Positions 4,913-26,825 of a DNA stretch of 32,656 nt are shown here, piece after piece. Source of the DNA: an uncultured Ruminococcus sp. (GTDB lineage: Bacteria > Bacillota > Clostridia > Oscillospirales > Ruminococcaceae); assembly GCA_900315755.1 (NCBI GenBank), contig ONAI01000039.1:1-32656 (forward strand), given 5' to 3'. Below the pieces are notes generated by a model. That model was not told the origin of the DNA, searched no databases, and saw only the letters and a list, made by a program, of their open reading frames with translations. Each line of letters begins with the position of its first letter. Within the stretch, counting starts at the first letter, position 1. The translations under genes and the position numbers were made by a program.

Positions 4913-4954
4913 TGATTCCTATAACGAAAAACATAAGTGTTGAATAATAAACTG

Positions 4955-4989
4955 AGGCTGATGCGTAGTTGACTGCACCAGCCTTTTTT
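4955..4989 (+). terminator. Rho-independent terminator between convergent genes
   Basis: AGGCTG (4955-4960) pairs with CAGCCT (4979-4984), with an inner TGC/GCA extension, followed by six T. It ends transcription of the diguanylate cyclase gene. On the - strand the same stem is followed by a shorter T-rich stretch, so it may also serve the importer operon arriving from the right. Confidence 0.8.
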
Positions 4990-5043
4990 ATATCTGCAAG
5001 AGTATAGTTTGTCAATAAAAAATCTTTTCAAACATAAAACAGA

Positions 5044-6129
5044 TTACGTGCGTGATTTATACGCCTCCAATAACCGTTTATTTCCGATGTTCATCGTACC
5101 GAAGCTGTCAAGACAGCATATGACTTCACTGCATCTTTTCATTATATCCAGAGCTTTCAGGACACTTTCGTCGCTTATCGGTTCAAATGCTTTTTCAATG
5201 ACAAGTTCTGCTGCAAGACTCTTTGCAACAGGATACTCAATATCGTTTTCATGTATAATACCTGCGGCAAATGCTATGCCCTGACGCTGCAAACGCCGGT
5301 AAGTATCAATACCGCTGCCGCCGCCGGCAATAACGAATATCTGAGGCTCTCCTGTGACTTTAGCAGCCTCAGTCGTACCGAATTCAGGCAGGAATGAGCC
5401 GCTTGTAACACCGTACAATTCACTGACGTAATCACCTTTGAATATATCCTCAGGAGCTCCGATCCTGTCAGCCTTATTATTTTTAATGCATAATATCTTA
5501 TCGGAAAAGCGCTGTGCGAGATCAAGTTCGTGAAGAGTCTGTACAACTGTGATATTTCTGCTTCGCACAAGCTCTCGAAGAATACTTAGCAGACGCAGTT
5601 TATTGTTTATGTCGAGAAAGGAAGTCGGCTCGTCGAGTATTAGGACATCCGGCTGCTGTGCAATAGCCCGCGCGAGCATTACCGTCTGGCGCTGACCGTC
5701 GCTTATAAAGCGTATATCCGTATCTGACAGATATGATATTCCGGTAAGCTCCATTGCTTCATGAACGATATTTCTATCGCTCTCAGAAAGGATCCCAAGT
5801 CTGCCGGTATATGGATACCGACCTGTTGAGACAACGTCCTCGCAGGTCATTTTTTCTGCGGTGATTCGCTCAGTCAGGCACACTGATAGCTTTTGTGCAA
5901 TATCGTGCGCGCTCATTGCTGAGATGTCAGTACCGGCTATGCTGACTTTGCCGGAAATTACAGGCAGCTGTGCGGCAATGCTTTTCAGTATAGTTGATTT
6001 GCCAGCACCGTTCGGACCGATTATTGTAAGTATCTCGCCTCTGTTGACTTCAAATTCAAGGCCGCTCACAATAACTTTCTTCCCGTAGCCAACAGACAGT
6101 TTCTTTGAACTCAGAATAGTACCGCTCAT
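5044..6129 (-). CDS. Corrinoid/iron-chelate-type ABC transporter ATPase (BtuD/FecE-like) with extra C-terminal domain
   Basis: A 361-residue ATPase that would power the adjacent permease. Residues 1-255 are the ABC domain: Walker A GPNGAGKST (38-46), a divergent signature ISDGQ (142-146) instead of LSGGQ, Walker B VLILDEP with E167, and a switch His at 200. Residues about 262-361 are an additional domain starting IFVIAGGGSGIDTYRR, with alternating strand and helix patterns suggestive of a small Rossmann-like fold; typical BtuD is only about 250 residues. The start abuts the permease stop with no gap. It is the last gene of the riboswitch operon. Substrate is inferred from the B12 riboswitch upstream; the role of the tail is unknown. 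Confidence 0.88.
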   Translation of the reverse strand: MSGTILSSKKLSVGYGKKVIVSGLEFEVNRGEILTIIGPNGAGKSTILKSIAAQLPVISGKVSIAGTDISAMSAHDIAQKLSVCLTERITAEKMTCEDVVSTGRYPYTGRLGILSESDRNIVHEAMELTGISYLSDTDIRFISDGQRQTVMLARAIAQQPDVLILDEPTSFLDINNKLRLLSILRELVRSRNITVVQTLHELDLAQRFSDKILCIKNNKADRIGAPEDIFKGDYVSELYGVTSGSFLPEFGTTEAAKVTGEPQIFVIAGGGSGIDTYRRLQRQGIAFAAGIIHENDIEYPVAKSLAAELVIEKAFEPISDESVLKALDIMKRCSEVICCLDSFGTMNIGNKRLLEAYKSRT

Positions 6130-7164
6130 TCACGCACTTCCTTTCTGATTCCTGCGGCTGAGCATTGCCATAATGACAACAGGTGCTCCGAATACAGCTG
6201 TGACAGTGCTTATGCTGATTTCGACAGGGGCAAAGAGCATACGCGCGATAAGGTCGCAGCCGAGACAGAATACTGCTCCTCCTATAAATGAAGCGGGAAT
6301 AATAATGATAGGCTTTGCAGTTCCGAATGAGGTCTTAACAAGGTGAGGAACGGCTATGCCAACAAATGAAACAGGTCCTGCAAAAGCCGTAACACAGGCA
6401 GAAAGTATGCTTGAAAGGAGTATCAGTGCTGTGCGGAAGAGTTTAATGTTCACGCCCATATTCTTAGCATAGTTCTCACCGAGTTGGTAGGCGCTCATGG
6501 GCTTTGAGAGCATAAAAGCTGCCGCAGAAGCTGCAATTACGATCACTGCGATGACCTTTACGTTGTCCATGTTGATACCGGAAAAGCTTCCCATAGACCA
6601 GTTGTGGAGGTTGACAATGTTCGCATCGTCTGCAAATGTGACAGCAAGCTCAGTCAGAGCTGAGCAAATGTAGCCTATCATCACTCCGACGATTATGAGC
6701 TGTGCCATATTCCTGACCTTACCTGAAATCAGCAGTATAGCGCCCATTGAGAGCATAGAGCCGATAAAAGCAGCTCCTACCATTTCGGCTGAATTCATCA
6801 GTATCCCGTATTTCATAGTGAACATCATCGAAAGTGCGACAGTCAGCTTTGCACCAGAGGATATTCCGAGCACATAAGGGCCGGCTATCGGGTTATTGAA
6901 GAAGCTTTGGAGAAGAAAGCCTGACACTGAAAGCGCTCCGCCGAGAAGAGCGGCAGCGAGTGTACGCGGCAGGCGTATTTCCATTACTATCGTCTTTGCG
7001 GAGCTGTTGCTGTCTCCGGTGAGTGCTCCGATAACGTCATTCAGTGAAAGCTTTGCGCTTCCCACAGCGAGTTCAAGAATTAAGAAAACTGCCGCAAGCA
7101 GTACAAGTACAATAAAACAGATCGTCCAGCGAATAACTCTTTTTCTGTTCATATCTTGCCTCAT
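6130..7164 (-). CDS. BtuC/FecCD-family ABC permease
   Basis: A 344-residue very hydrophobic protein of the BtuC/FecCD type, which normally has about ten membrane helices and moves a metal chelate or corrinoid inward. Family marks include RLPRTLAAALLGGALSVSG near residue 65, and the later GPVSFVGIAVPHLV segment that contacts the ATPase. The first ATG overlaps the binding-protein stop by four bases. An in-frame ATG at 7152 has GAGG six bases upstream, whereas the first ATG has no clear ribosome site, so the protein may really start at 7152. Substrate is inferred from operon context. Confidence 0.92.
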   Translation of the reverse strand: MRQDMNRKRVIRWTICFIVLVLLAAVFLILELAVGSAKLSLNDVIGALTGDSNSSAKTIVMEIRLPRTLAAALLGGALSVSGFLLQSFFNNPIAGPYVLGISSGAKLTVALSMMFTMKYGILMNSAEMVGAAFIGSMLSMGAILLISGKVRNMAQLIIVGVMIGYICSALTELAVTFADDANIVNLHNWSMGSFSGINMDNVKVIAVIVIAASAAAFMLSKPMSAYQLGENYAKNMGVNIKLFRTALILLSSILSACVTAFAGPVSFVGIAVPHLVKTSFGTAKPIIIIPASFIGGAVFCLGCDLIARMLFAPVEISISTVTAVFGAPVVIMAMLSRRNQKGSA

Positions 7165-8291
7165 TTCAGCTTGTGCAGATAAGTAAGCTCTGTACTTTCT
7201 GCTTTATCCGTAAAAACTGCGTTAAGGTCGCATATCATATCCGCAGCGCCTGTGGTCTGCTGAAACATATTCTGTCCGGTACACCAGACGTTGCCCTCTT
7301 TGACAGCCTTGAAATCCGCAAGTATGCTGCTCTTTCTGATAAGCTGGTCAATACTGTCTATCTCACCGTCTATCGTGCTGTTATATATGAGTATATCGGC
7401 ATCGTGAGCCAGCTTGTAGAAGGTCTCGGTCTGAATGTTCATAGTAGACAGTGCATTATCGTCAACATTCAGGTCAGATGCGGTGAATATATACCTTCCG
7501 CCGGCGAGGTCTATCATCTTTGCAACGTAGTCCGAAGGCTTCCTTATGTTGAAGTAGCCGTTCGAGGTCACGTAAAAGAATGCGGCTGTCTTGTGTTCGG
7601 AATCGGGTATATCATCGACTTTCAATTCCTCAAACGCCTTTGTTTTTTCTATGAACAGATTTTCGGCTGTTTCATAGTCCCCCATGATGAGTCCGTAGAG
7701 TTTCATCCATTCCATTCTTCCGAGAGGGTGAGTCTCATAGCTTGAACGCTCGACCATAACAGGTATGCCGAAGGACTCGATCTGCTCCTTGACCTTTGGC
7801 GTGTGGTATATCATAGTGGATTCAAGAGCGAGTCCGCATTTTTCAGCGACAAGTGTTTCGTAGTCCGGAGAACTGTACTTTCCGATATACTCAATTTTGC
7901 CGGACTCAACTGCATCACTGATTACAGGAATGCTCCAGCTATCGGCGTTTGTGGAAGTCATAGTGACATTGCCAAGCTTGCCTATGCTGTCAAACAGATC
8001 CATTGAAGACGTCGCGGCAACGTAAATATTATTGATTGGCTGTTTTATAACAGTCATTCCGGAAGTGTCATCGGGAACGCTTTCACCCTCCGGCACAATG
8101 AGGAACTTGTCGCCGTTTATATCCACGAGAGAGCAGCCATTCTCACAATAGTCAACGCTGAACTGCTCAGCGTATTTCAGCTCCATGCTGCCCTTGACAG
8201 ACATATCCGCCGTGTCTTTTTTCTTCTCACAGCCTGTAACGAACAGCAGACCTGCTGCCGTTACAAGCGATACCAAACGTATTATCCGCAT
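7161..8291 (-). CDS. BtuF/FepB-type substrate-binding lipoprotein
   Basis: A 376-residue solute-binding protein with a lipoprotein signal (LLFVTGC, Cys 21), so it would be tethered outside the cell and deliver ligand to the permease. The body follows the BtuF/FepB periplasmic-binding fold: a first lobe with IYVAATSSMDLFDSIG and YIGKYSSPDYETLVAEK, the ESFGIPV stretch, a long linking helix, and a second lobe with the GGRYIF and GNVWC motifs common in this family. It overlaps the upstream gene by ten bases. Iron-siderophore or heme binding cannot be excluded by sequence; a corrinoid is favoured by the riboswitch. Confidence 0.88.
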   Translation of the reverse strand: MRIIRLVSLVTAAGLLFVTGCEKKKDTADMSVKGSMELKYAEQFSVDYCENGCSLVDINGDKFLIVPEGESVPDDTSGMTVIKQPINNIYVAATSSMDLFDSIGKLGNVTMTSTNADSWSIPVISDAVESGKIEYIGKYSSPDYETLVAEKCGLALESTMIYHTPKVKEQIESFGIPVMVERSSYETHPLGRMEWMKLYGLIMGDYETAENLFIEKTKAFEELKVDDIPDSEHKTAAFFYVTSNGYFNIRKPSDYVAKMIDLAGGRYIFTASDLNVDDNALSTMNIQTETFYKLAHDADILIYNSTIDGEIDSIDQLIRKSSILADFKAVKEGNVWCTGQNMFQQTTGAADMICDLNAVFTDKAESTELTYLHKLK

Positions 8292-9211
8292 TTTTTGACA
8301 GTTGAGGAATCAAATCTGAGTGTGTAATCTATCATGTGTGGTTCACTCATAGCAGTGGTCTCAGCGCTTACAGGCATATTGTAATCAAAACCTGTAACGG
8401 GTATCTCGAATACTGAATGACCGCCCGTGATGACCGGAGCATATTCTTTTTCCTGTACGACCATTTTATCATAGTTGTCGCTGTTCCATGCGATCTTCGC
8501 AAGAGCTTTGCCGTCCTTGACTGTGAGTTCCGCCGGTGACTGAACAGATGCTCTGCCTGAACCTCCTTCAAGCTTCACCTCAACAGTATAATTTCCGTCC
8601 TCAAGACCGAGCTGCTCTGTGGAGGTGTATCTGCTTTCAGTAAAAGCCGCGTCCGGAAGCGAATCTGCACGGAATACAAGAGTGCGTCCGTACCATTCCT
8701 GTTTCTTTGCGCTGAGTGCCGCACACTGTATCTCCTTGTCGAGAGCCTCGACCGGCACTCTGAATACCGACTGTCCGCTCTCATTAGAAGTATAGGTGAT
8801 ACGCTCACTCTCAGGAGCATTTCCGGCTTCTTCTTCCGTACCCATAAACAGCGCATCATAGGACTTGCTTGCGATGATAATATCTGCGGACATACTTCCG
8901 TTATCTACATAGAGAATACAGTCAGCTATCTTGAACATTGACGAACTGGAATCAACAGAAATATTGTACTTTCCGTTTTTGAGAGAATCAGCATTTACAG
9001 TATTCATTCCCTCATATCCGACTGTGTTCTGTGGAGCGGTTTCATGCTCTGTCTGTGCTGCTGTGGTAGTGGTCACAGTTGATGTGGATGAAGCTTCTGA
9101 TGATGCGGCTGTTGTCTGAACAGCCTTTTCAGACGATGATGATGTACTGTTGCCGCATGATGTGAGAGTAAGTGCGGCAAGGAGTGAAATTGCTATAATA
9201 GTTTTTTTCAT
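8282..9211 (-). CDS. Surface lipoprotein with two tandem NEAT-like domains
   Basis: A 309-residue lipoprotein (LTLTSC, Cys 19) with a Ser/Thr-rich spacer to about residue 70, then two related domains at about 77-186 and 203-302. Aligned landmarks are LxxGxYxxxV at the start, a central S..YD.L/M, SVF..PV, and a closing TL.F..DS. The second copy is closer to the family form, with DGNYTVEV, SPAELTVKDGKA and FDSS. The pattern resembles NEAT domains, which bind heme in Gram-positive bacteria, but identity is too low to be sure and the heme-ligating Tyr motif is not obvious. Position between an exported chelatase and a BtuF-like protein suggests tetrapyrrole or corrinoid capture. Start supported by AGAGGT upstream of the ATG. 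Confidence 0.75.
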   Translation of the reverse strand: MKKTIIAISLLAALTLTSCGNSTSSSSEKAVQTTAASSEASSTSTVTTTTAAQTEHETAPQNTVGYEGMNTVNADSLKNGKYNISVDSSSSMFKIADCILYVDNGSMSADIIIASKSYDALFMGTEEEAGNAPESERITYTSNESGQSVFRVPVEALDKEIQCAALSAKKQEWYGRTLVFRADSLPDAAFTESRYTSTEQLGLEDGNYTVEVKLEGGSGRASVQSPAELTVKDGKALAKIAWNSDNYDKMVVQEKEYAPVITGGHSVFEIPVTGFDYNMPVSAETTAMSEPHMIDYTLRFDSSTVKKCG

Positions 9212-9232
9212 ATTTACCTCTTATATCAAAAT

Positions 9233-9252
9233 CGGGCAGCGTAAACTGCCCG
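9233..9252 (-). promoter_or_regulatory. Intercistronic stem-loop after the chelatase gene
   Basis: A perfect 7-bp stem CGGGCAG/CTGCCCG with a 6-base loop lies in the 48-base gap between the chelatase and NEAT-like genes. On the - strand it is followed only by ATTTTGAT, so it looks like a partial attenuator or mRNA-stabilising hairpin. It could make the chelatase more abundant than the downstream transporter. Confidence 0.55.
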
Positions 9253-9259
9253 AAAGATT

Positions 9260-10321
9260 TTACTTTATTGAATCAATAGCCTTCTGAGCGTGTTCAACGT
9301 AGAGCTTTCTGATCGCCTCGTTTTCTCCGAGACCTCTTATCAGACACTTTACTTCATAGCCCTCAGCTTCAAATACCGACTTCCACGAATCCTCGTCATC
9401 GCCAGCCATATCGTTGTTTGCGTGGTCGCCTGCAACTACCATAAGAGGCTCAAGTACGACCTTTTCGTATCCGCCTGCCTTGACCTTGGCAAGAACATCC
9501 TCAACGGAGGGCTCAGCTTCGACTGTGCCTACAAAATAATTCTTGTGACCGTTTGAAGTGAGGAGATCCTGTATCTTTGCGTATACACTATTGGAAGCTG
9601 CCTCAGTACCATGTCCCATGAAGCAGATAGCAGTCTTTCCGTCATCGTATTCCTTTGTCCAGTCAACGATAGCGTTCATAACGCGTTTGAAGTCGTCATC
9701 GCTTGTGAGAAGAGGATCACCAATTGCGACCTTCTCAAAGGCATCGGAATAATTAGCGATCTCTGCTTTTACATCGTTGTATTCAAGACCGTTCATGAGG
9801 TGTGTAGGCTGAACAACGAGCTTCTTTACCTTATTGGAAACTGCTCTGTCGAGGGCTTCCTTAACGTCGTCGATGACTTCATTATCGCGGTGCTTAACGT
9901 GGTCGATGATTATATTAGCTGTGAAGCCGCGGCGTACAGAAAAATCGGAGAATGCGTCCTCAAGCGACTGCTCGATAGCACCTATTGTAAGGCGGCGGCT
10001 GTCATTGAAGCTTGTACCGAAGCTGAGCACAAGAAGCTCGTTTTCACCGATGCTATCCTGATTTCTTGGGTTGTCGAGGGAAGCATCGCCGGTATCGTAG
10101 TTCTCCTCTTCTTCCTCTTCAGGCTCTGAAGCTGCCGAATTTGAGGCTTTGGTAGTCTTTGCAGCAGTTGTCGCTGCTGTTGTTGCCTCAGTAGATGCTG
10201 ATGATGAAGCAGCAGTAGTTGCAGTCTTCTTGCTTTCAGAAGAACTGTCGGAACTTCCGCAGGCTGTGAACGAAGCAGTTACGACTGCAAGTCCCATTAA
10301 AAGAGCGATTGTTTTTTTCAT
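9260..10321 (-). CDS. cbiK: Exported CbiK-type (class II) cobaltochelatase lipoprotein
   Basis: A 353-residue protein whose body (about 94-353) matches CbiK, which inserts cobalt into sirohydrochlorin. Family residues are visible: LLVLSFGTSF, QPTHLMNGLE, MGHGTE with H237, TVEAEP with E268, and VAGDHANNDM with H300, corresponding to the His-Glu-His metal site. Unlike cytoplasmic CbiK it carries a signal peptide with lipobox FTAC (Cys 21) and a 70-residue Ser/Thr/Ala and Glu-rich spacer, placing the enzyme outside the membrane. The start at 10321 is chosen because AAAGGAAG precedes it and the signal peptide begins there; a longer frame to 10432 would run through the terminator. It is the first gene after the cobalamin riboswitch. 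It could act as a chelatase or, like the CbiK homologue IhtB, in metal or tetrapyrrole binding. Confidence 0.9.
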   Translation of the reverse strand: MKKTIALLMGLAVVTASFTACGSSDSSSESKKTATTAASSSASTEATTAATTAAKTTKASNSAASEPEEEEEENYDTGDASLDNPRNQDSIGENELLVLSFGTSFNDSRRLTIGAIEQSLEDAFSDFSVRRGFTANIIIDHVKHRDNEVIDDVKEALDRAVSNKVKKLVVQPTHLMNGLEYNDVKAEIANYSDAFEKVAIGDPLLTSDDDFKRVMNAIVDWTKEYDDGKTAICFMGHGTEAASNSVYAKIQDLLTSNGHKNYFVGTVEAEPSVEDVLAKVKAGGYEKVVLEPLMVVAGDHANNDMAGDDEDSWKSVFEAEGYEVKCLIRGLGENEAIRKLYVEHAQKAIDSIK

Positions 10322-10359
10322 AATGATCTTCCTTTCTGAGAAAGGCTTGACCGCATAAC

Positions 10360-10386
10360 AAAAAAGCCTCTGCACAGGCAGAAGGC
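10360..10386 (-). terminator. Riboswitch expression-platform terminator
   Basis: On the - strand GCCTTCTGC and GCAGAGGC form an 8-bp stem with one bulged T, followed by six T. It lies between the B12 aptamer and the chelatase start. Another hairpin (AGACTC/GAGTCT, about 10395-10415) sits between it and the aptamer. This is the expected transcription-off element when cobalamin is bound. Confidence 0.85.
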
Positions 10387-10464
10387 GTTGAAGACAGACT
10401 CGCTCAGAGAGTCTGCATAACAGTACGATCAATACCTCGTGACCTTGACATTTCTGTCATGTAC

Positions 10465-10652
10465 CAACAAAACGGCAGGTTTCCTGACTTATGCATCATC
10501 ACGCCGTACAGCCTTCCCGATTGCTCAGTGACATATTGTACAGCGCTCCGCAATTACAGTGACGAGATCGTGCAGGAACTTCACCTGCTTCCCTTTTACC
10601 CTCCTGCAACAGCAAAGCTGTCGGAGGCACCGCTTGAATTATTAAATTGTTG
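10465..10652 (-). ncRNA. Cobalamin riboswitch aptamer
   Basis: Read on the - strand, the region has the conserved cobalamin aptamer features in order: GGTGCC, GGAGGGTAAAAGGGAA, CAGGTGAA followed by TCCTGCACG, CACTGT, and the B12 box AGTCAGGAAACCTGC at 10475-10489. The closing helix P1 can be CAACAA (10647-10652) with TTGTTG (10465-10470). It controls the chelatase/importer operon: with ample adenosylcobalamin or a related corrinoid the downstream terminator forms. No such element occurs upstream of cbiD. Confidence 0.97.
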
Positions 10653-10667
10653 TCTAAAGACATACAT

Positions 10668-10696
10668 ATTATAGCATTATTGACCGTTAATTGCAA
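10668..10696 (-). promoter_or_regulatory. Promoter of the riboswitch operon
   Basis: On the - strand TTGCAA (10691-10696) and a perfect TATAAT (10668-10673) are 17 bases apart, placing the transcript start about ten bases before the aptamer's P1 helix. It lies between the cbiC stop and the riboswitch, so the capture operon can be expressed independently of biosynthesis. Confidence 0.8.
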
Positions 10697-10734
10697 GTAT
10701 ATGACGAATTTTATACGTTAGCTACAATCGCTCT

Positions 10735-11376
10735 TCACTTTTTGAAGCCTTTTTTGTCGTCAAGCATATAAAGCAGTGCATTGCAGATAGCAGCCGCTAC
10801 ATTGCTTCCGCCCTTTCGTCCTCTTGCGACTATACACGGTACTCCGCTGTCAATGAGCATTTCCTTTGACTGTACAACATTCACGAAGCCTACCGGCGCA
10901 CCGATAATGAGTTCCGGTACGAATGAACCTGCGGATATGTGTTCGCAAAGCCGGACGAGAGCAGTCGGGGCATTTCCGACCGCATATATGACAGGTCTGC
11001 CGAGCCTTGCGGCTTTATCGACGGATGATGCTGCTCGTGTTGTTCCGTTAGCCTTAGCAGTCTTAACTATGTCCTCATCAGCCATAAAGCACTCACATCC
11101 GCAGCCGTGGCGTGTCAGTGCCGCATTGTTTATACCGGCTTTAGCCATATTTGTGTCAGTGACGATGAGAACTCCGCTGTCCAGCAGCTGAAGTGCCTTT
11201 TCTATGACATTTTCGGAAAAATAGAGGTTTTCTGCATAGTCAAAATCAGCGGTAGTGTGTATCGCACGTATCACTACCGGTTTTATCTCCGTAGGTATAT
11301 CAGTTACAAGTTCGCTTTCTATTATTTCAAAGCTGCGCTTTTCGATGTCCGCCGGCAGCACATATTCCAGATTCAT
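10735..11376 (-). CDS. cbiC: Cobalt-precorrin-8 methylmutase
   Basis: A 213-residue CbiC/CobH enzyme that moves the C11 methyl group to C12, giving cobyrinate. Visible family features are VIRAIHTTADFDYA with the catalytic-type His 40, the TDTNMAKAGIN motif, GNAPTAL, and the C-terminal GAPVGFVNVVQSKE and ARGRKGGSNVAAA segments. Length is typical. Its ATG overlaps the cbiP stop as ATGA. It is the last gene of the biosynthetic operon, and only about 40 bases without a clear terminator separate it from the riboswitch promoter. Confidence 0.96.
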   Translation of the reverse strand: MNLEYVLPADIEKRSFEIIESELVTDIPTEIKPVVIRAIHTTADFDYAENLYFSENVIEKALQLLDSGVLIVTDTNMAKAGINNAALTRHGCGCECFMADEDIVKTAKANGTTRAASSVDKAARLGRPVIYAVGNAPTALVRLCEHISAGSFVPELIIGAPVGFVNVVQSKEMLIDSGVPCIVARGRKGGSNVAAAICNALLYMLDDKKGFKK

Positions 11377-12842
11377 ACGCCCTCCTCTATTATACGGTAA
11401 ATGAGCTCCATATTGATGTTATTTCTTACGCTGTCAGCAAGCAGATCAAGCTGAGAATCTCGGTATTCACGCCTGTCGATGCAGCTGCCGGTGTAGTGAA
11501 GTCCTTGCCTTTCATACAGAGCCTTTATCAGTCTGCCGGAGACCTCTGCACTGTCGAAAATACCATGAACATAGCAGCCGGCAGCATTGCTGTTATAAGC
11601 ACCGCCACAGGTTGTGAGCGGCGCACCTGCGCTTTCAGTCACGCCCATATGGACCTCATATCCGCAGAACTCCGCACCCGAAAGGAACGAGAAAAAACCG
11701 CTTACATTGTTGAACTTTCCACTGACCTGAGACTGCTGCTTTTTAGTGCTGAAAACAGTGTCACAGTCAAGCAAGCCAAGTCCATCACTGCTGCCGCCGC
11801 ATTCGCTGTGATGCGGATCGGAAATAGTGCTTCCCATGATCTGATAGCCGCCGCATATCCCGAACACCGGAGTTCCTGCACAGTTCAGCATTTTTATAGC
11901 CTCTGCGAGACCGCTTTCCGTGAGCCATTTCATATCAGCGATAGTGCTTTTCGTTCCGGGGATTATAAGCATATCCGGCAGACCAAGTTCGCTCGCTCTT
12001 GTGACGTAGCGTACCGAAACGCCGTCATACTGGCTAAAGACATCAAGATCGGAGAAGTTTGAGATCTTCGGAAGGCGGATGACAGCAATGTCGATAACGC
12101 CGTCCGCCGACTTTGTATTCAGTTTTTCAGACAGACTGTCTTCGTCCTCAATATCGCAGCTGATGTAAGGTATCACGCCGGCGACTGTCTTGCCGGAGCG
12201 CTCTTGAAGTATGCTTATACCGTTCTGAAATAACGATATATCGCCGCGGAACTTATTCACAACAAGTCCTTTGACAAGTGTTCTTTCACTCGCTTCAAGG
12301 AGCTGTAAAGTGCCGATGAGCTGTGCAAAAACTCCGCCGCGGTCAATGTCTCCGACGAGAAGCACGGGGGACTTCACAAGCTCTGCAAGTCCCATATTCA
12401 CGATGTCATCCGCTTTGAGGTTCAGCTCAACAGGACTGCCTGCGCCCTCGATAACGATAATATCGTGCTGACTGGAGAGTGTTTTGTAGGCGGTCATGAT
12501 GTCAGGAATGAGTTCTTTTTTACAGCGAAAATAGTCGGCTGCGCGCATATTTCCGCGAACTTTTCCGTTGACTATCACCTGCGAGCCGACATCAGTTGTC
12601 GGTTTGAGAAGTATTGGATTCATCAGCGCAGAAGGGGAGATGCCGGCGGCTTCAGCCTGCAAAGCCTGTGCCCTGCCGATCTCAGCACCGTCGGGAGTTA
12701 TGAAGGAATTCAGCGCCATATTCTGCGATTTGAAGGGAGCGACTGAATAGCCGTCCTGCCGGAATATCCTGCAAAGAGCGGCTGTGAGAAAGCTCTTTCC
12801 GACATTGGACATCGTGCCTTGAAGCATTATGCTTTTAGCCAT
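11373..12842 (-). CDS. cbiP: Cobyric acid synthase, glutamine-dependent
   Basis: A 489-residue CbiP/CobQ that amidates four side chains (b, d, e, g) of adenosylcobyrinate a,c-diamide using ATP and glutamine. The N-terminal half is the dethiobiotin-synthetase-like ATPase: GTMSNVGKS P-loop (9-17), FKSQNMALNS and EGAGSPVELNL. The C-terminal half is a type-1 glutaminase with nucleophile C330 in GICGGYQ and H426 in YVHGIFD. It starts within the end of cobD (8-base overlap) and couples to cbiC. Confidence 0.97.
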   Translation of the reverse strand: MAKSIMLQGTMSNVGKSFLTAALCRIFRQDGYSVAPFKSQNMALNSFITPDGAEIGRAQALQAEAAGISPSALMNPILLKPTTDVGSQVIVNGKVRGNMRAADYFRCKKELIPDIMTAYKTLSSQHDIIVIEGAGSPVELNLKADDIVNMGLAELVKSPVLLVGDIDRGGVFAQLIGTLQLLEASERTLVKGLVVNKFRGDISLFQNGISILQERSGKTVAGVIPYISCDIEDEDSLSEKLNTKSADGVIDIAVIRLPKISNFSDLDVFSQYDGVSVRYVTRASELGLPDMLIIPGTKSTIADMKWLTESGLAEAIKMLNCAGTPVFGICGGYQIMGSTISDPHHSECGGSSDGLGLLDCDTVFSTKKQQSQVSGKFNNVSGFFSFLSGAEFCGYEVHMGVTESAGAPLTTCGGAYNSNAAGCYVHGIFDSAEVSGRLIKALYERQGLHYTGSCIDRREYRDSQLDLLADSVRNNINMELIYRIIEEGV

Positions 12843-13869
12843 TTATGCACCTCCTTAGTGTTTCGATAAGCTTTATATTTTCGCTGTGAGTTCGCACTGC
12901 AATGCGGTAGAAGCCGTCTGAAAGTCCGCTGAAATTCGAGCAGTCACGAATAAGTATGCCATCCGCGAGCATTCTTTCAGCAAGTCCCTTATCACTTTTG
13001 AACATCATGAAATTTGCCGCAGAATCGTATACTTTAACGCCGAGCCCTCGCAGTTCCATGGTTAGAAATTCACGTTCGGAAGCGATATACTCTATTGTTT
13101 TGTGAACGTAGTTATTTTCATCCATAGCAGCTATACCAGCTTTCTGTGCGACCGATGAAACGCTCCAGAATTGACCGCTGTTTCGTATTTTTTCTGCAAG
13201 CTCAGTGTTGCCGCATACCGCGTAACCAAGCCTTATTCCCGGTATGGCATACAACTTTGTGAAGGCTTTGAGAATAATTGAACTGCCGCTTATAAAGCGC
13301 ATCAGACTGTATTCTTTGCCGTCCGGTACAAAGTCAAGAAAGCACTCGTCGCTGACAAGAACAGTTCCGTTGTGCTGACATTTTTTTGAGACTTCCTCCA
13401 TAATGTCCGGAGGTGTCAGGCTGCCTGTGGGATTGTTCGGATTGCAGATAAAGCACAAATCTAAGCTTTCGTCAAGGGAGCTTAGAATGTCGCCGGTAAC
13501 GTTAAAGCTATTATCCTCACTCAGGCGATATTCAGTTGTTTCGCAGCCGACTTCGGAAAGTGCACGGCTGTATTCGGTAAAGGATGGAGCGCACACAAGA
13601 GCTTTGTGCGGCTTTAGTGTATGAACAATGCGGAAAATAAGGTCATCCGCGCCGTTTCCGCAAATTATTCTTTCAAAGCTTATGGCCTCATGCACAGATA
13701 TTTTTTTTCTGAGTTCTGTACAGTCTGGATCTGGGTATTTTTCAATATCAGAAATATTCGCTGCAATTGCTGCTTTCACGCTCTCAGGCGTTCCAAGAGG
13801 ATTGATATTAGCCGAAAAATCGATGATATTTTTCAGACTGTAAGCGTTTCCGCCGTGTTGTTGTATCAT
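12835..13869 (-). CDS. cobD: L-threonine-O-3-phosphate decarboxylase
   Basis: A 344-residue PLP enzyme of the histidinol-phosphate-aminotransferase fold, probably CobD, which makes (R)-1-aminopropan-2-ol phosphate for the nucleotide loop. Evidence: the N-terminal HGGN.YSL motif, IDFSANINPLG, CNPNNPTG (142-149), DECFLDF, and the PLP-binding Lys at 205 in FTKLYAIPGIRLGY. GGAGG precedes the ATG, which overlaps the cbiB distal-half stop (ATGA). Histidinol-phosphate aminotransferase is the alternative, but the cobalamin neighbours and HGGN start favour CobD. Confidence 0.94.
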   Translation of the reverse strand: MIQQHGGNAYSLKNIIDFSANINPLGTPESVKAAIAANISDIEKYPDPDCTELRKKISVHEAISFERIICGNGADDLIFRIVHTLKPHKALVCAPSFTEYSRALSEVGCETTEYRLSEDNSFNVTGDILSSLDESLDLCFICNPNNPTGSLTPPDIMEEVSKKCQHNGTVLVSDECFLDFVPDGKEYSLMRFISGSSIILKAFTKLYAIPGIRLGYAVCGNTELAEKIRNSGQFWSVSSVAQKAGIAAMDENNYVHKTIEYIASEREFLTMELRGLGVKVYDSAANFMMFKSDKGLAERMLADGILIRDCSNFSGLSDGFYRIAVRTHSENIKLIETLRRCING

Positions 13870-14282
13870 AGTATTCCTCCAAAAATAATGGCTCTGAGCG
13901 CCACTGAAATAATGAGCATTATTACTGATGAGCCGTACATAAGGCGGTTTGCGCGGCGTATGTCAGCAGCTTCTATCGGTCGGTCATCATCGCCGATATA
14001 TGGCTTTTTGTGCAGCTTTCCGAAGTAGTATGCGTCACCAGCAAGCCGAACGTGCAAAGCACCTGCACAGGCGGATTCAGTCTGTGCAGAATTAGGACTT
14101 GCGTGCTTTCTGCGGTCACGCTTCCAGATGCGAAATGCATTGCGTCCGTCAAGCCTGCAAACAGGAGCGGCTATGACCATAAGCAGCGCTGTGAGTCTTG
14201 AAGGAATATAGTTAAGGACATCATCAAGCTTTGCTGCAAACCACCCTATATCCGCGAATTTCTCGTCCTTATAGCCTATCAT
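13866..14282 (-). CDS. cbiB: Adenosylcobinamide-phosphate synthase, C-terminal half (split cbiB)
   Basis: The 138-residue distal part of CbiB, which joins the aminopropanol phosphate to cobyric acid in the membrane. It begins M-I-G-Y-K-D-E-K-F, the second half of the conserved family motif VNTLDSMxGYKNxRY, and continues with WFAAKLDDVLNYIPSRLTAL, PNSAQTE.A.AGAL and a final hydrophobic helix. The proximal half ends VNTMDS, then TGA, and ATGA overlaps this start. Adding one base would restore a 321-residue CbiB. It may be translated by coupled reinitiation, or the gene may be damaged or misread. Confidence 0.88.
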   Translation of the reverse strand: MIGYKDEKFADIGWFAAKLDDVLNYIPSRLTALLMVIAAPVCRLDGRNAFRIWKRDRRKHASPNSAQTESACAGALHVRLAGDAYYFGKLHKKPYIGDDDRPIEAADIRRANRLMYGSSVIMLIISVALRAIIFGGIL

Positions 14283-14830
14283 GAATCCATAGTATTTACT
14301 GATTTGTAGAAAAATCCACCGACTGCACCTCCGATTCCCATATAGAAAAGCGGAGCGGTCACGCCGTCAGAGGTGTTTTCGGCGACCGTCTCCACCGCTG
14401 CACGGATAATCCCGCCGCGGTCAAGGACTGATGTATCACGCCCTACTATCATTGAGACGGCTTTCCGTGCGGCTTCGGTATCACCGCTCTCTGCCGCCCT
14501 GAAAACCTTCATACTCTCACTGTACAGACACCTTGAGGCAAGCATATAACAGCACAGAATCGTTTCAGCTGCTATTCCCAAATAAATATTCACGCGATAG
14601 CAAAAAATGAGTATTAGAAGTGGCACAACTGTTGACATAATTATCACGGTCAGTGCGAGAAAAGTTCCACCCAGCCGCAGATTCTTCATTTTTCTCCGGA
14701 CGTATCCTTCAAGTCTGCCGATAAGACTGCCGATGAGTTTTATCGGGTGAGGCATTTTGTATGGATCACCAATAATGCAGTCGAGCACAAATCCCAGTAT
14801 CAAGGGGAGTACAAGTGATAGTATTTTCAT
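14279..14830 (-). CDS. cbiB: Adenosylcobinamide-phosphate synthase, N-terminal half (split cbiB)
   Basis: A 183-residue proximal part of CbiB starting at the ATG at 14830, with GGAG seven bases upstream and an ATGA overlap with the cobC stop. It has the CbiB marks DCIIGDPYKMPHPI, RCL, the D-T-S-V-L-D-R region, VAENTSDGVTAPLFY and FYKSVNTMDS, plus several hydrophobic helices. It ends inside the most conserved stretch of the family because one base (most simply an A before ATGATA near 14282) is missing. Both halves are intact elsewhere, so the event is recent, functional as a split protein, or a sequence error. Confidence 0.88.
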   Translation of the reverse strand: MKILSLVLPLILGFVLDCIIGDPYKMPHPIKLIGSLIGRLEGYVRRKMKNLRLGGTFLALTVIIMSTVVPLLILIFCYRVNIYLGIAAETILCCYMLASRCLYSESMKVFRAAESGDTEAARKAVSMIVGRDTSVLDRGGIIRAAVETVAENTSDGVTAPLFYMGIGGAVGGFFYKSVNTMDS

Positions 14831-15387
14831 ATTTTCTCCGTTATCTGAAGTTTTGTTCCGTCCCATTCGCAAACGTATCCGTGACCGTTTTCGCAGTGCC
14901 AGTCAAAATAATCTCTTTGCGGAACAGCAAATTTTTCAAGTATGGACATTATCGTTCCACCGTGAATGATTAAAGCAATGGACTCATATCGCTCATTCTG
15001 ACTGACCATTTTTTGATATGCATTCACGCATCGCAATCGGAAATCAGCAGGCGATTCACCGTTGGGAAATGGCAGTTTGCCGCCGCTGTCTATCCACCTC
15101 TGATATGCGGCACTGCTTGAAAGCTCAGTGTAGTTTTTTCCCTCAAAATCACCGAAATCGCACTCTCTAAGGTCGCTGTAAACCGTAATATCCTGCGTGG
15201 GAAATATTATCTCAGCAGTCTGAGTACAGCGTTTCATGGGACTGCAAATAAGAAGTTGACATTCCGGATAATCAAGCTCACTGAGTTTGGAGATACCCTC
15301 ACTGCAAAGCGGCTCGTCCGTTTTGCCAATGTATCGCTTATCAAGATTTCCGGCTGTCAGACCGTGCCTTATAAAAACTATCCTCAT
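14827..15387 (-). CDS. cobC: Alpha-ribazole-phosphate phosphatase (histidine phosphatase family)
   Basis: A 186-residue phosphoglycerate-mutase-like phosphatase. It has the RHG motif at residues 7-9 followed by LTAGN, CSPMKRCTQTA, the LRECDFGDFEG acid motif, NGESPADFRLR and IIHGGT with the second catalytic His. In a cobalamin operon this is best read as CobC, which removes the 5'-phosphate from alpha-ribazole phosphate or from adenosylcobalamin 5'-phosphate. Overlaps of ATGA type on both sides support tight coupling. The family is broad, so substrate rests on context. Confidence 0.88.
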   Translation of the reverse strand: MRIVFIRHGLTAGNLDKRYIGKTDEPLCSEGISKLSELDYPECQLLICSPMKRCTQTAEIIFPTQDITVYSDLRECDFGDFEGKNYTELSSSAAYQRWIDSGGKLPFPNGESPADFRLRCVNAYQKMVSQNERYESIALIIHGGTIMSILEKFAVPQRDYFDWHCENGHGYVCEWDGTKLQITEKI

Positions 15388-15767
15388 TCGTTTTCACCTT
15401 TGATAATATCCGGTATCCCACAGACTATCCGTATCACTTTTTCAGAATTCGCAGCTATGATACAGCCGCATCGTCCCACATTTTCGCGCCAAATGCGCTC
15501 GCTCTTCTCGATCGGAACGATACCGCAGCCGATCTCGTTTATGATTATTACAGCATCCGGATTTGAGCGGCAAAGCTCCTCAGTAAAGGTGACAGACCTA
15601 TCACCGAGCCGCTTGACAATATCGTGGTAATTTAGAATGCAGCGTACATTCTTAAGTGCGTCAAAATTACAGTCTGCGCCGTCAGCAATGTCACTTTCAG
15701 CAAGTCCGAATTTTCGCATAGCATAGGCAGTTTTGCCCTGATGAATCCCGCCTGTTATCATTATCAT
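15384..15767 (-). CDS. Short CobU-like P-loop protein
   Basis: A 127-residue protein starting at the ATG at 15767, which overlaps the cobS stop (ATGA). It has a P-loop GGIHQGKT (6-13) and a C-terminal half matching CobU (INEIGCGIVP, RIWRENVGR, I..GIPDIIKG). It is about 45 residues shorter than the full CobU encoded two genes away and lacks much of the CobU middle region. A His (48) lies at about the same distance from the P-loop as the guanylylated His of CobU, but the RHR context is absent. It may be a kinase-only paralogue, a partner subunit or a regulator; its activity is unknown. Confidence 0.8.
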   Translation of the reverse strand: MIMITGGIHQGKTAYAMRKFGLAESDIADGADCNFDALKNVRCILNYHDIVKRLGDRSVTFTEELCRSNPDAVIIINEIGCGIVPIEKSERIWRENVGRCGCIIAANSEKVIRIVCGIPDIIKGENE

Positions 15768-16528
15768 AGTGCCATTATCCTTTCCGAAAACACTACCGCT
15801 GCGAGAATCATGATCTCGCACATCTGTAAGAACCAACCGCAGAGATCACCGGTAATACCGCCAAAATCACGATACGCTGTGAACCTGTGATATGTCAGCA
15901 CAAGCAACGCAGCCGCAATTGCCGTGCTTCCCTCTGAAGGCAGCAGGAATATCATTGCCGCTCCGCTAAGGATAAGAAAGCATACTTGCATAGCAATCGT
16001 TATACTTCGATGTGCCGGATGTACAAAACTCTGCAAAGTTCCACTGCTTTTTGCTGATTTGAATGTGACTGCGGTAAGTCCGCTGATCGCTCTTGAAAGT
16101 ACATATCCGCAGGCGATGACTGAGGCTGTTTCCATAGTTCTAACCTGCGAAAAGAGCGCTGTCTGAATTATGAGATAAAGACACAGCTTCATTACGGCGA
16201 ATGAACCTATATGCGGATCCGACATTATTTCAAGACGCTTTTCCTTATTCGCATATGAAGCTCTTGCATCGTTCACGTCGCAAAAGCCGTCGAGATGAAT
16301 GCCGCCGGTCACAAGAGCTGGCAGGAAAACAGCACCTGCCGAGAATAAAAACTGTCCAAATTGAAGTTCGTCACAGATGTAACGCCAAAGCAGCAGCAAT
16401 CCGCCAATAACAGCTCCCACAAGCGGAAAAAATCCCAGCGCATAACGGCGGTTTTCCTCTTTCCACTCCACTTTGGGCACGGGTATCCGCGAATACATCA
16501 GGAACGCCGAAAGCAGTGATCTTACCAT
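15764..16528 (-). CDS. cobS: Adenosylcobinamide-GDP ribazoletransferase (cobalamin synthase)
   Basis: A 254-residue membrane enzyme that joins adenosylcobinamide-GDP to alpha-ribazole or its phosphate. Family motifs are YSRIPVP, the GFFPLVGAVIGG segment, and GGIHLDGFCDVNDA, which corresponds to the Mg-binding HLDG.xDxxD motif, followed by MSDPHIGSFAV. The ATG at 16528 has AAAGGAG upstream and overlaps the cobU end by seven bases. Several hydrophobic helices follow. Residue Ala replaces the usual Gly after the last Asp of the motif. Confidence 0.95.
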   Translation of the reverse strand: MVRSLLSAFLMYSRIPVPKVEWKEENRRYALGFFPLVGAVIGGLLLLWRYICDELQFGQFLFSAGAVFLPALVTGGIHLDGFCDVNDARASYANKEKRLEIMSDPHIGSFAVMKLCLYLIIQTALFSQVRTMETASVIACGYVLSRAISGLTAVTFKSAKSSGTLQSFVHPAHRSITIAMQVCFLILSGAAMIFLLPSEGSTAIAAALLVLTYHRFTAYRDFGGITGDLCGWFLQMCEIMILAAVVFSERIMAL

Positions 16529-17043
16529 ATTTTTTCTCCTTTCAGCACGATAGGGATGCCGTACACACACTCAATAACATTGTCGGCAAATTCGGCTATT
16601 CTGCGGTTGATACAGCCAAGTACGCGGATGTAATCAGCCGTTCCGTCAGTATAAGTGATACCATCGCTGCCGACTTGATTCGTGACTATTACAAGTTCGG
16701 AAACGCTGTTCGCAAGCTGCTTTACACCGTGGACTATCTTGTAAGCCGGATCACTTACAGTGCCGTCTGAAAACATTTCATTCGCGCAGAGATTCCCAAG
16801 ACATTCAAGCAGCACTGCACAGTCCTCCGGCAGGGATAATTCGTGAATATCAGTGTATTTCTCAACAGTCTCGAAGCCTTTTCCTGCACGCATTTTCCGG
16901 TGACGTTCAATGGCTTCAAAGGCTTCCTCACCGAAAGGCTGCATAGTGGCGATATAGATCTTCCTGCCGTGGAATTGTTCGAGGATTCTCTCTGCAAAGC
17001 TCGATTTACCGCACTTTGAACCTCCTGTTATGAGAGTGGTCAT
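16522..17043 (-). CDS. cobU: Adenosylcobinamide kinase / adenosylcobinamide-phosphate guanylyltransferase
   Basis: A 173-residue CobU, typical in length, which phosphorylates adenosylcobinamide and then transfers GMP to it. It has the P-loop GGSKCGKS (7-14), IATMQPFGEE, and the guanylylation-site region ERHRKMR with H48, followed by LLECLGNL.ANEMF, VTNQVGSDG and the terminal GIPIVLKG. Its start overlaps the cobT stop (ATGA). A shorter paralogue lies on the other side of cobS. Confidence 0.95.
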   Translation of the reverse strand: MTTLITGGSKCGKSSFAERILEQFHGRKIYIATMQPFGEEAFEAIERHRKMRAGKGFETVEKYTDIHELSLPEDCAVLLECLGNLCANEMFSDGTVSDPAYKIVHGVKQLANSVSELVIVTNQVGSDGITYTDGTADYIRVLGCINRRIAEFADNVIECVYGIPIVLKGEKIW

Positions 17044-18002
17044 TTTAGTTCCACATACCTTTCTATATTTGTGTCATCAAACCTGTGAGAGTTTTTGTAA
17101 AGTGCCAGTGCTCCGTCAAGCAGCGGAACAAGCAGCACTCCGCCTGTGCCCTCACCGAGCCGTAGTCCGGCGTTTATCGGAGCAGTCAGTCCACAGTAAT
17201 TGAGAAGTCCCTCGCCGGCAGGCTCTCCCGAACAATGGCTCGCAAGCATATACTCAGCACACAGAGGTTCAATAGTGCAGGCGATCGCAGCAGCTGCTGC
17301 GGATATAACTCCGTCAACTATCACGGGTACGCGGTAGTAAGCACCGCCGAGAAAAAGCCCGACCATTGCGGCAATTTCTGCCCCGCCGACCTTCTGGAGC
17401 AGTTCAACAGGCTTGTCAGGTGACGGCTGATTGACTTCTATCGCGCGCCTTACGACATTGATCTTTTTTTGCAGTCCTGATGCCGAAAGTCCTGCACCTC
17501 TTCCGGTGACATTTTCGGGTGGAAGTCCGAGCAATACAGATGCAATTGCGGCGGCAGGAGTAGTGTTGCCAATGCCCATTTCTCCGGTAATTATGAGCCT
17601 TGTACCGTTTTGGACAAGCTCTCCGGCAACGTCTATTCCCGTAATGAGAGCCGCTTCTGTTTCGGCAGGAGTCATTGCGCTTTCATTGGCTATATTTCGT
17701 GTTCCGTGAACTATTTTCCGATGCACGAGTTTCTTGCAGTCAACATTCTGAGCAATACCCACATCGACTGCCACAACGTCAACATTGTAAGCTCCTGCGA
17801 CAGCGTTTATATTTGAGCGCCCCTCAGCAATAGCTCTGGCACACTCCGCCGTGACTTCCTGTCCGCACTGTGTAACTCCCTCACTGACGACGCCGTGATC
17901 TCCGCACATAACGACTGCCGTTCGCTTGGAAATATCCACGTCAGCGTTTCCCTGAACAGCGGCTATCTTCTGCATCTGAACAATGTGTTTTATCCTGTTC
18001 AT
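17040..18002 (-). CDS. cobT: Nicotinate-nucleotide-dimethylbenzimidazole phosphoribosyltransferase, N-terminally short
   Basis: A 320-residue CobT, which makes alpha-ribazole phosphate from a lower-ligand base and nicotinate mononucleotide. Clear motifs are CGDHGVVSEGVT, ITGEMGIGNTTPAAA, VTGRGAGL and RLGEGTGG with E284, matching the catalytic Glu 317 of the Salmonella enzyme. About 33 N-terminal residues are missing, including the usual KPxGSLG segment. An in-frame stop lies just upstream of the ATG, and GGAG is well spaced, so this start is real. It overlaps cbiA by 62 bases, unlike its neighbours. Whether the short form is active is not evident. Confidence 0.92.
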   Translation of the reverse strand: MNRIKHIVQMQKIAAVQGNADVDISKRTAVVMCGDHGVVSEGVTQCGQEVTAECARAIAEGRSNINAVAGAYNVDVVAVDVGIAQNVDCKKLVHRKIVHGTRNIANESAMTPAETEAALITGIDVAGELVQNGTRLIITGEMGIGNTTPAAAIASVLLGLPPENVTGRGAGLSASGLQKKINVVRRAIEVNQPSPDKPVELLQKVGGAEIAAMVGLFLGGAYYRVPVIVDGVISAAAAAIACTIEPLCAEYMLASHCSGEPAGEGLLNYCGLTAPINAGLRLGEGTGGVLLVPLLDGALALYKNSHRFDDTNIERYVELK

Positions 18003-19323
18003 TTCTCACTCCGTGTTCAATACATTTTTTCACAAATCTTTCCGCAACTCCTAAATCAGAATAGAAATAAATATGTGGAAATCCTGCATAAATATTCATT
18101 CCGGTATGGCAGCAATCCCAAGTCCTGCCGTCGCTTTTTTCGGCAGTGAAGCCGTTCCCGCAGTTTGTGCTTTCCCAGTAGTGGAATTCATGTGCCCTGA
18201 TAGTCTCGCCGCGTTTACACAGAAGATTGTCCGAGTTTGCATTCATCGCAATATAGCCGAATCTCTGAAGCTTGTCAGTAGGGAACGTACTTCCGTTTAT
18301 CACGCCTGCCATAGGATAAGAAGAGCTGCTCTTGTCTGTCAGAGTGTCATGCAGATACATGAATCCTCCGCACTCTGCAATAGTTGGCATACCGCTTGAA
18401 ATGCACTTTTTTACGCTTTCGAGCATTGATGAATTTGCAGATAATTTTGCTGCATAAAGCTCAGGATAACCGCCGCTGAGGATAAGTCCGTCCGCCTTTG
18501 GGACAGTGCTGTCGCTGAGAGGCGAGAAGTAACTTATCTTGCAGCCCATTTTTTCAAGCAGCTCGATATTCTCATGATAGATAAAGCAGAACGCGCTGTC
18601 TCTTGCAACTGCTATTGTCGGTGATTCCGGGAAAAATGGAGGATTTACAGGCTCATGTTCCGGCATCGGGACATCACCGGATCTTATCAGTTTATCAATT
18701 TCAATGTACTCTTCGGCAAGCTGACCGAGTGCTTCGAGCTTAGCCTGAATGTCAGCTATTTCATCGGCAGTAATAAGTCCGAGGTGTCGGCTCTCGATAG
18801 TAATATCACACTTTGGCAGGCATCCGAAATATTCAGTGCCAAGCTCACGGCAGAGCCTTTCAGCAAGTGGTATCAGCTTTTCCGGCAGACAATTAAAAAT
18901 GAAGCCTGATATGTGGTTGGGACGGTAGCTGAGAAAGCCGCTCATAACCGCTCCGATCGAGTCGCTCATACCCTTGCAGTTGATAACGATGACAGCCGGT
19001 GTTTCGGTGAGTTCAGACATCGAATGAGCGCTTCCGCAGTTACCGTCATAGAATCCCATGACCCCTTCAATGACTGAAATATCGCTTTGGGCACTGTATT
19101 CATGAAGCAGTGAAAGTAGCGTGTTCCTGTCACAGAAATAGCCGTCGAGGTTATGAGAACTCACACCGATGACTTTTCTGTGAAACATCGGATCGATATA
19201 ATCAGGTCCGCATTTGAACGCAGAAACGCTCATATTACGCCGTTTGAGAGCTGTGAGCACAGCGCAGGTGACGGTAGTTTTTCCGCAGCCGCTTTTAGTT
19301 CCGCCGATAATTATACGCTTCAT
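17941..19323 (-). CDS. cbiA: Cobyrinate a,c-diamide synthase, glutamine-dependent
   Basis: A 460-residue CbiA that amidates the a and c side chains of cobyrinate. It has the P-loop GTKSGCGKTT (8-17), KCGPDYIDPMFH, EGVMGFYDG, LSGGYPELY, the glutaminase Cys 318 in ECGGFMYL and His 417 in GFPHIYFYS. The natural family end is around residue 440; the final 20 residues lie over the start of cobT in another frame, look low in similarity to anything, and may reflect loss of the original stop. The start is ATGA-coupled to cbiET. Confidence 0.96.
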   Translation of the reverse strand: MKRIIIGGTKSGCGKTTVTCAVLTALKRRNMSVSAFKCGPDYIDPMFHRKVIGVSSHNLDGYFCDRNTLLSLLHEYSAQSDISVIEGVMGFYDGNCGSAHSMSELTETPAVIVINCKGMSDSIGAVMSGFLSYRPNHISGFIFNCLPEKLIPLAERLCRELGTEYFGCLPKCDITIESRHLGLITADEIADIQAKLEALGQLAEEYIEIDKLIRSGDVPMPEHEPVNPPFFPESPTIAVARDSAFCFIYHENIELLEKMGCKISYFSPLSDSTVPKADGLILSGGYPELYAAKLSANSSMLESVKKCISSGMPTIAECGGFMYLHDTLTDKSSSSYPMAGVINGSTFPTDKLQRFGYIAMNANSDNLLCKRGETIRAHEFHYWESTNCGNGFTAEKSDGRTWDCCHTGMNIYAGFPHIYFYSDLGVAERFVKKCIEHGVRNEQDKTHCSDAEDSRCSGKR

Positions 19324-23749: not shown

Positions 23750-23750
23750 A

Positions 23751-26815: not shown

Positions 26816-26825
26816 TAATTGATAT

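Follow-up and report, generated by a model that had tools for sequence, protein, structure and literature searches.

We analysed positions 1-32,656 (forward strand; 32,656 nucleotides, hereafter the window) of contig ONAI01000039.1 from an uncultured Ruminococcus sp. (assembly GCA_900315755.1), whose genome (G000) comprises 2.45 Mb in 123 contigs and is 92% complete. On the minus strand the window carries a cobalamin riboswitch followed by five genes reaching down to 5044, which code for a predicted lipoprotein version of the cobaltochelatase CbiK, a two-domain NEAT-like lipoprotein for which we use the working name LipB, a lipoprotein substrate-binding protein (SBP), a permease and an ATPase. 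Directly upstream, on the same strand, lie genes for the later steps of cobalamin synthesis. We present evidence that this operon may be the point at which a scavenged ring enters a truncated cobalamin pathway. The features are as follows.

10735..24878 (-): later cobalamin genes, cbiD to cbiC
10668..10696 (-): promoter-like site (TTGCAA, 17 nt, TATAAT, TG before the -10 element), a consensus match only, from a consensus scan
10457..10649 (-): cobalamin riboswitch aptamer RF00174 (cmscan, 100.4 bits, E 3.3e-24)
10367..10384 (-): terminator-like hairpin and T run between aptamer and cbiK, a consensus match and probable expression platform
9260..10321 (-): lipoprotein CbiK (P0001), 353 aa, ATG at 10321, PF06180
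9232..9253 (-): strong 9-bp hairpin in the cbiK-LipB gap (fold -16.3 kcal/mol, z -4.2)
8282..9211 (-): LipB (P0002), 309 aa, from translation, Pfam, hhalign and the NEAT matches of relatives
7161..8291 (-): lipoprotein SBP (P0003), 376 aa, PF01497
6130..7164 (-): FecCD/BtuC-type permease, by Pfam and NCBIfam
5044..6129 (-): BtuD-type ATPase with a C-terminal extension of ~110 residues, by Pfam and NCBIfam

The aptamer exceeds its gathering score of 31.5 bits and is the only match in the assembly to do so, the second reaching 15.3 bits; its position ahead of the five genes bears out the riboswitch-controlled operon described in a first-pass annotation of the window. The succession of promoter-like site, aptamer, hairpin and cbiK suggests the layout of a transcription-terminating riboswitch. 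The hairpin at 10384-10367 recurs in the computed fold, which as a whole is unremarkable (z -1.1). As for the hairpin at 9232-9253, it might be an attenuator or a processing site, perhaps keeping CbiK at a higher level than the importer. No tandem repeats were found in 4900-11400 and no tRNAs in the window.

The CbiK protein matches PF06180 at 270 bits (cut-off 26.2, E 2e-80), with an acidic linker at about residues 65-92 preceding a CbiK body at residues 95-350. By our own reading its N-terminus (M-K-K, a hydrophobic stretch and Cys-21) fits a lipoprotein signal; this prediction conflicts with the cytoplasmic location expected of CbiK in the anaerobic pathway. The metal site is intact (H237, E268, H300), and the lipid-anchored CbiK with a His-Glu-His site put forward by the first-pass annotation stands as a prediction. 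The best relative among solved structures is Salmonella CbiK (1qgo, E 4e-43), followed by FetB (9b86) and the putative chelatase 2xvx, which we take to be the periplasmic Dv-CbiKP of Desulfovibrio. The NCBIfam equivalog model NF047852 is not reached (235.5 bits vs a cut-off of 400), and the protein is therefore termed a homologue and not a curated equivalog. A wrong start codon masking a cytoplasmic CbiK was ruled out by the presence of a lipobox in 78 of 80 CbiK proteins of the genus, lipoboxes being called by a home-made rule. Across the aligned sequences the His-Glu-His site is present in 44 of 44 exported and 61 of 67 cytoplasmic CbiK proteins, and its retention in all the exported ones argues for catalysis. 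A segment resembling ENYxTGDASLD before the CbiK body was noticed by eye in the linker of P0001 and in loci L015, L041, L060 and L077.

LipB is built from two domains that are homologous to each other (hhalign probability 98%). Its own score against the Pfam NEAT family PF05031 (18.0 bits) falls short of the gathering score (32.8), but 35 of 49 relatives match the family at E<=0.01, the best at 4.7e-9, which makes the earlier description of a two-domain NEAT-like lipoprotein plausible. The SBP (PF01497), the FecCD permease and the ABC (ATP-binding cassette) ATPase give clear Pfam matches. The first-pass annotation had called these three a BtuFCD-like importer, which fits the permease and the ATPase, whose top models, both below cut-off, are BtuC (205 vs 334 bits) and a corrinoid ATPase (231 vs 537 bits). 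It fits the SBP less well, the family of which is closer, if weakly, to the heme-type binding proteins Lmo2184 and IsdE than to BtuF: among solved structures its profile (A2) matches Lmo2184 (E 6.5e-10), 4ovk and IsdE (0.0014), with BtuF absent from the matches at E<=0.01, and IsdE is the NCBIfam model matched by the most family members (9/23). The window SBP alone has no match in the PDB. The ATPase extension covers residues ~250-361, part of which falls within the corrinoid-ATPase model NF007082.

The adjoining cluster is transcribed in the order cbiD, cbiF (a short open reading frame, ORF), cbiG, cbiH, cbiJ, cbiET, cbiA, cobT, cobU, cobS, a short CobU-like ORF, cobC, cbiB (split), cobD, cbiP and cbiC. 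Here cbiF, cbiC and cbiB were named by NCBIfam, cbiD by PF01888, the methylases by PF00590 and the CobU-like ORF by Pfam, the remaining names being our own reading of the translations. No cbiL, cobA or chelatase gene lies within this cluster. Searches of the whole assembly recovered a single CbiK, no further match above cut-off to CbiX (PF01903) and no match to HemC (PF01379), with HemA, HemB and HemL not searched there. PF00590 finds four methylases in the genome: CbiF, CbiH, CbiET and a fourth, encoded on contig 83, which we take for RsmI because of its size and because relatives have it too; with the four so assigned, the assembly holds neither CobA nor CbiL. A second chelatase or a CobA elsewhere in the genome was thus sought and not found. 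The ratios of non-synonymous to synonymous substitution (dN/dS) for 18 genes of the operon and the cob cluster, measured against the near relative G099, range from 0.06 to 0.31, the value for CbiJ resting on eight changes. Judged by these ratios the later corrin genes are under purifying selection, and decay of the pathway is not supported. The split of cbiB into two ORFs (13866-14872(-)) and the short cbiF (23180-23749(-)) look like local frameshifts, either biological or introduced in assembly; in G099 cbiF has 252 aa (L291), and matches to both cbiB pieces are present (L280).

Since the window genome is incomplete, we surveyed the genomes of relatives, using a genus sample of 120 genomes and a class sample of 323 genomes with a completeness threshold of 93%, each including the window genome. 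In the genus, CbiK was found in 80 genomes, CbiD in 76, HemC in 9 and CbiL above cut-off in 34; the 65 genomes that are >=90% complete and <=5% contaminated include 47 with CbiK, 44 with CbiD and 7 with HemC. Among the 76 CbiD genomes HemC is present in 6 and without a match in 70, and CbiL is present in 34 and not found in 42, G000 among them, some of these genomes being incomplete. Each of the 80 CbiK-bearing genomes has exactly one CbiK match, and in 78, the window's included, it is a lipoprotein by rule and by eye. The two exceptions are G070 (L287), with a cytoplasmic protein that the rule had miscalled a lipoprotein, and G036 (L262), in which the N-terminus is cut at a contig end.

Linkage of these genes in relatives, on which the first-pass annotation had made its reading depend, is pervasive. 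In 76 of 79 genus loci the gene directly after CbiK is LipB, and in 73 the SBP comes next in turn; the complete five-gene order is visible in 41, with 30 of the 79 loci too short for the permease to be seen. Among 80 named loci picked by similarity to the window CbiK, the corresponding counts are 77, 72 and 63; the rule gives a lipoprotein CbiK in 72 of these and not in 8, some of which look Sec-exported (L055, L056, L075) and some cut at a contig end, as judged by eye. Ruminococcus flavefaciens Y1 (L014) is one strain that carries the operon. In some loci the genes are even fused: a single open frame covers CbiK and LipB in six (L041, L060, L083, L086, L102, L186), and LipB and the SBP in ten (L052, L055, L057, L067, L071, L073, L085, L183, L185, L190). 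The CbiK-LipB fusion puts the two proteins together outside the membrane and speaks for joint action. Each of the 13 genus loci scanned (of the 79 retrieved) has a riboswitch close to the operon or upstream of it. An origin of the operon by chance or misassembly is ruled out by the recurrence of gene order and riboswitch in relatives.

The genus survey also bears on the missing enzymes. A search for all tetrapyrrole (TP) methylases in 14 CbiD genomes that have no match to CbiL or HemC (95-99% complete) found exactly four in 13 of them and three plus two fragments in the fourteenth, against five in each of four CbiL genomes. On the genus CbiK tree (74 rows, 70 labelled; L092 and L255 omitted because the start motif is missing) the presence of CbiL changes at least 4 times, and 9 times on the best tree. 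No conserved substitute for CbiL was seen upstream of cbiD in the loci retrieved, several of which end soon after cbiD. In the nine HemC-bearing genomes a HemA-SirC-HemC-CobA/HemD-HemB-HemL cluster is complete in 8, the ninth being a short contig. A sulfate ABC transporter adjoins it in four of the nine loci, a fifth has CysA at the contig end, and the remaining four show no sulfate ABC genes or a distant ABC ATPase alone; in the three hem loci scanned we found sulfite reductase (L311, L314) or a PAPS-reductase-family protein (L317). From these neighbours the hem clusters of the genus probably serve siroheme.

In the class sample CbiK occurs in 81 of the 323 genomes. HemC was searched for in 80 of these, the window genome excepted, and was present in 58 and not found in 22. 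The 90 CbiK loci retrieved were sorted by N-terminus into exported and cytoplasmic and then corrected by eye: L160 and L163, called signal peptide or transmembrane (SP/TM) by the rule, were scored as lipoproteins, L147 and L154 as cytoplasmic proteins with start-codon artefacts, L192 as exported by a Sec-type signal, and L209, an odd fragment, as not exported. An exported CbiK alone is found in 13 of the 22 genomes without a HemC match vs 2 of the 58 with one (Fisher test, 1.3e-7), an association that persists after shuffling within families (p 0.0018); six further HemC-bearing genomes have an exported CbiK alongside a cytoplasmic one. The neighbours differ likewise. In stretches of ~7 kb around 21 exported and 66 cytoplasmic CbiK loci, LipB is found near 16 of the former vs 3 of the latter, an SBP near 15 vs 2 and BtuC near 14 vs 4; L208, L209 and L210 are omitted from these counts and from the class CbiK tree. 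Counted by genome, with G169 (L208) still included, CbiK has a BtuC-like gene nearby in 13 of 22 genomes without HemC vs 6 of 58 with it, and in four of those 13 CbiK is cytoplasmic or fragmentary. The importer thus tends to occur where early tetrapyrrole synthesis is lacking, including in genomes without an exported CbiK. A riboswitch is present in 13 of the 20 exported-CbiK class loci scanned (out of 21). The exported label changes 5 times on the best class CbiK tree (111 rows, built by a quick method) and 2 times if well-supported branches alone are counted; the window protein falls within a large exported group, with G201+G138, G388+G330 and G398 apart from it. To judge from this tree a repeated origin of CbiK export is likely. 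One subgroup of exported CbiK proteins (L178, L182, L183, L185, L186, L190, L191, L192) has a long N-terminal extension, with candidate starts up to ~100-260 residues upstream of the CbiK match.

The retention of a corrin pathway for which no source of ring substrate was found, together with a sole chelatase placed outside the membrane beside an importer, makes salvage with cobalt insertion at the surface the plainest account, and we lean towards it. The operon would then supply a truncated cobalamin pathway with its starting ring. At low cellular B12 the riboswitch would permit transcription of the operon; LipB and the lipoprotein SBP would catch an extracellular early tetrapyrrole of the B12 pathway, released by other microbes, which we infer to be sirohydrochlorin or a ring close to it; CbiK, anchored at the surface, would insert cobalt and trap the ring in its cobalt form; the FecCD/ATPase importer would then take up the loaded ring, and the cytoplasmic Cbi and Cob enzymes of the neighbouring cluster would complete the corrin ring and the nucleotide loop. 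Insertion outside would commit the ring as a B12 precursor and could spare the cell a cobalt importer. In members that have CbiL the captured ring can be sirohydrochlorin. Factor III is a metabolite of B12 producers, and members without CbiL, the window genome included, may capture this trimethylated ring or its cobalt form, methylate C20 by another enzyme or dispense with the step. Of what the first-pass annotation proposed, B12-controlled tetrapyrrole capture involving an exported cobaltochelatase appears the best-supported reading of the sequence evidence, upheld in part. Its alternative of loading or stripping metal narrows to the entry step of a truncated pathway, given the sole CbiK, the failure to find HemC, CobA and CbiL, and the selection on the later genes.

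Several observations weigh against this account. The window genome, at 92% completeness, lacks a part. In the genus, 39 of the 76 CbiD genomes (the window's and 38 others) have no match to either HemC or CbiL, and for these a supply of sirohydrochlorin alone would leave the known pathway incomplete. G012, G028 and G055 (74% complete) possess HemC and CobA-HemD with a CbiK that is exported only, and have no CbiL match, the all-methylase search having covered G012 and G028; they count against a simple rule that CbiK is exported only when HemC is lost. In the class sample G330 and G378 likewise combine HemC with an exported CbiK alone. Genomes without HemC have a cytoplasmic CbiK in seven full-length cases, with fragments in G169 and G298, and four of these nine (G165, G232, G300, G169) have a BtuC-like gene near CbiK, so that export is not required for salvage. 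Seven of the 20 exported-CbiK class loci show no riboswitch within the stretch read, and the independent tree pairs number 2-4, too few, so that shared descent could still underlie the association. Finally, the matches of the SBP to heme SBPs are weak and lie chiefly over one lobe.

Three other explanations have to be set beside it. The operon could be a corrinoid importer that takes up cobalamin or cobinamide as BtuFCD does, its exported CbiK being an accessory binding protein or serving another purpose. A B12 riboswitch is typical of corrinoid importers, the permease and ATPase score best, though below cut-offs, against the BtuC and corrinoid-ATPase models, and linked genes in Desulfovibrio are named btuCDF by Rodionov 2004 (PMC545781). 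We nevertheless regard this as unlikely: it leaves unexplained why the sole chelatase, with its site intact, is exported and linked to an importer, why export is tied to the absence of HemC, and where the retained cbi genes would find their substrate, and the matches of the SBP family are to heme-type binding proteins and not to BtuF. Those matches, to IsdE and Lmo2184, together with the NEAT-like lipoprotein and the place of FetB 9b86 as second-best solved relative of P0001, would instead suit a protein that handles heme or porphyrin as FetB/IhtB does, stripping or swapping the metal for the use of iron or porphyrin; a review (PMC13402209) reports that FetB exchanges the metals of porphyrins at the cell surface. 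Regulation by a B12 riboswitch, the neighbouring cob genes and the tie between exported CbiK and HemC absence in corrin-making genomes render that explanation quite improbable. The order of events might also be the reverse, a metal-free or cobalt-carrying ring being imported first and the surface CbiK acting as a binding or hand-over protein or as a metal scavenger. This would accommodate the four genomes (G165, G232, G300, G169) in which HemC was not found and a cytoplasmic or fragmentary CbiK lies close to a BtuC-like gene, but the invariant His-Glu-His of the exported proteins speaks for catalysis and no other chelatase was found in the window genome to act after uptake, and we hold it to be decidedly unlikely.

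Salvage of an early ring through a surface chelatase has partial precedents. Tetrapyrrole precursor salvagers were defined by Shelton et al. (ISME J), with dependence on 5-aminolevulinic acid (ALA) verified in three species, and comprise Firmicutes with corrin genes and without early tetrapyrrole genes that are predicted to need an external precursor; the portion of that paper we drew on describes neither an uptake system nor an exported chelatase (PMC6461909). The window genome resembles them in its missing early tetrapyrrole genes (HemC and CobA not found; HemA, HemB and HemL not searched) and departs from them in that the corrin-ring pathway is not complete, CbiL not being found. Its gap extends past precorrin-2, and if these absences are true ALA could not rescue it. 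In Desulfovibrio a B12 element precedes cbiK-cbiL and btuCDF, the importer being read as a B12 transporter (Rodionov et al. 2004, PMC545781), and Dv-CbiKP is called periplasmic (PMC4063343); riboswitch, CbiK outside the cytoplasm and importer are thus shared with the window, whereas nearly complete de novo synthesis is described for those genomes (PMC545781) and the accessible text of both papers mentions no NEAT-like lipoprotein. Salmonella CbiK (1qgo) belongs to the same family with the same His-Glu-His site, but has no lipoprotein signal and is cytoplasmic, acting on the cell's own sirohydrochlorin (see PMC7689651). Heme uptake of the Isd type resembles the window operon in its NEAT-like lipoprotein, SBP and FecCD-family permease and differs in that the window operon is under B12 control and includes a chelatase, the sequence matches being weak. 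In Porphyromonas gingivalis FetB and IhtB, presumably two names of one protein, offer a further CbiK-family member that acts on an extracellular tetrapyrrole. The title of Roper 2000 speaks of a functional corrin pathway in this organism. According to PMC6461909 it lacks the steps to precorrin-2. IhtB is described as a putative ferrochelatase (PMC13227078) and FetB as handling heme and Mn-porphyrin with exchange of porphyrin metal (PMC13402209); these accounts differ from the present case in concerning a Gram-negative organism and, in the parts consulted, mention no B12 riboswitch. In the literature searched, outside which most subscription papers lie, we found no proposal that a salvage route begins with an exported CbiK; the parts are known, and their combination and role are, on that basis, new.

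As a tentative generalization, which we regard as doubtful, cobalt insertion may have moved outside the cell in many Clostridia, with producers shedding early rings that others load at their surface and finish inside, so that the pathway would be shared between species; where CbiL is also missing, cells would capture factor III, with or without its cobalt, or else handle the C20 step otherwise. By analogy, the same logic could account for a P. gingivalis corrin pathway without precorrin-2 synthesis, turning an old question into one testable with defined ligands. If salvage at the surface is correct, such bacteria would depend on neighbours for the early ring, and gut communities would trade at the level of sirohydrochlorin or factor III beyond finished corrinoids; genome surveys may currently tally these bacteria as B12 producers or cobinamide salvagers. 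The operon is a candidate for the uptake system of tetrapyrrole precursor salvagers, and a testable role is offered for exported CbiK proteins in distant lineages.

A few further observations concern the surroundings of these genes. L092 (G083) and L255 (G094) carry a rearranged operon, with BtuC and BtuD upstream of a more divergent exported CbiK. Diverging from the cob cluster of the window are genes for a ZnuA-type SBP, an ATPase and a permease (25739-28528(+)), a system also present in G099 that may take up zinc, manganese or cobalt; no ORF similar to its SBP was seen in the loci of other relatives, several of which end too early. Beyond it, at 29206-31767(+), an EF-G-like GTPase is fused to a YacP-like NYN domain.

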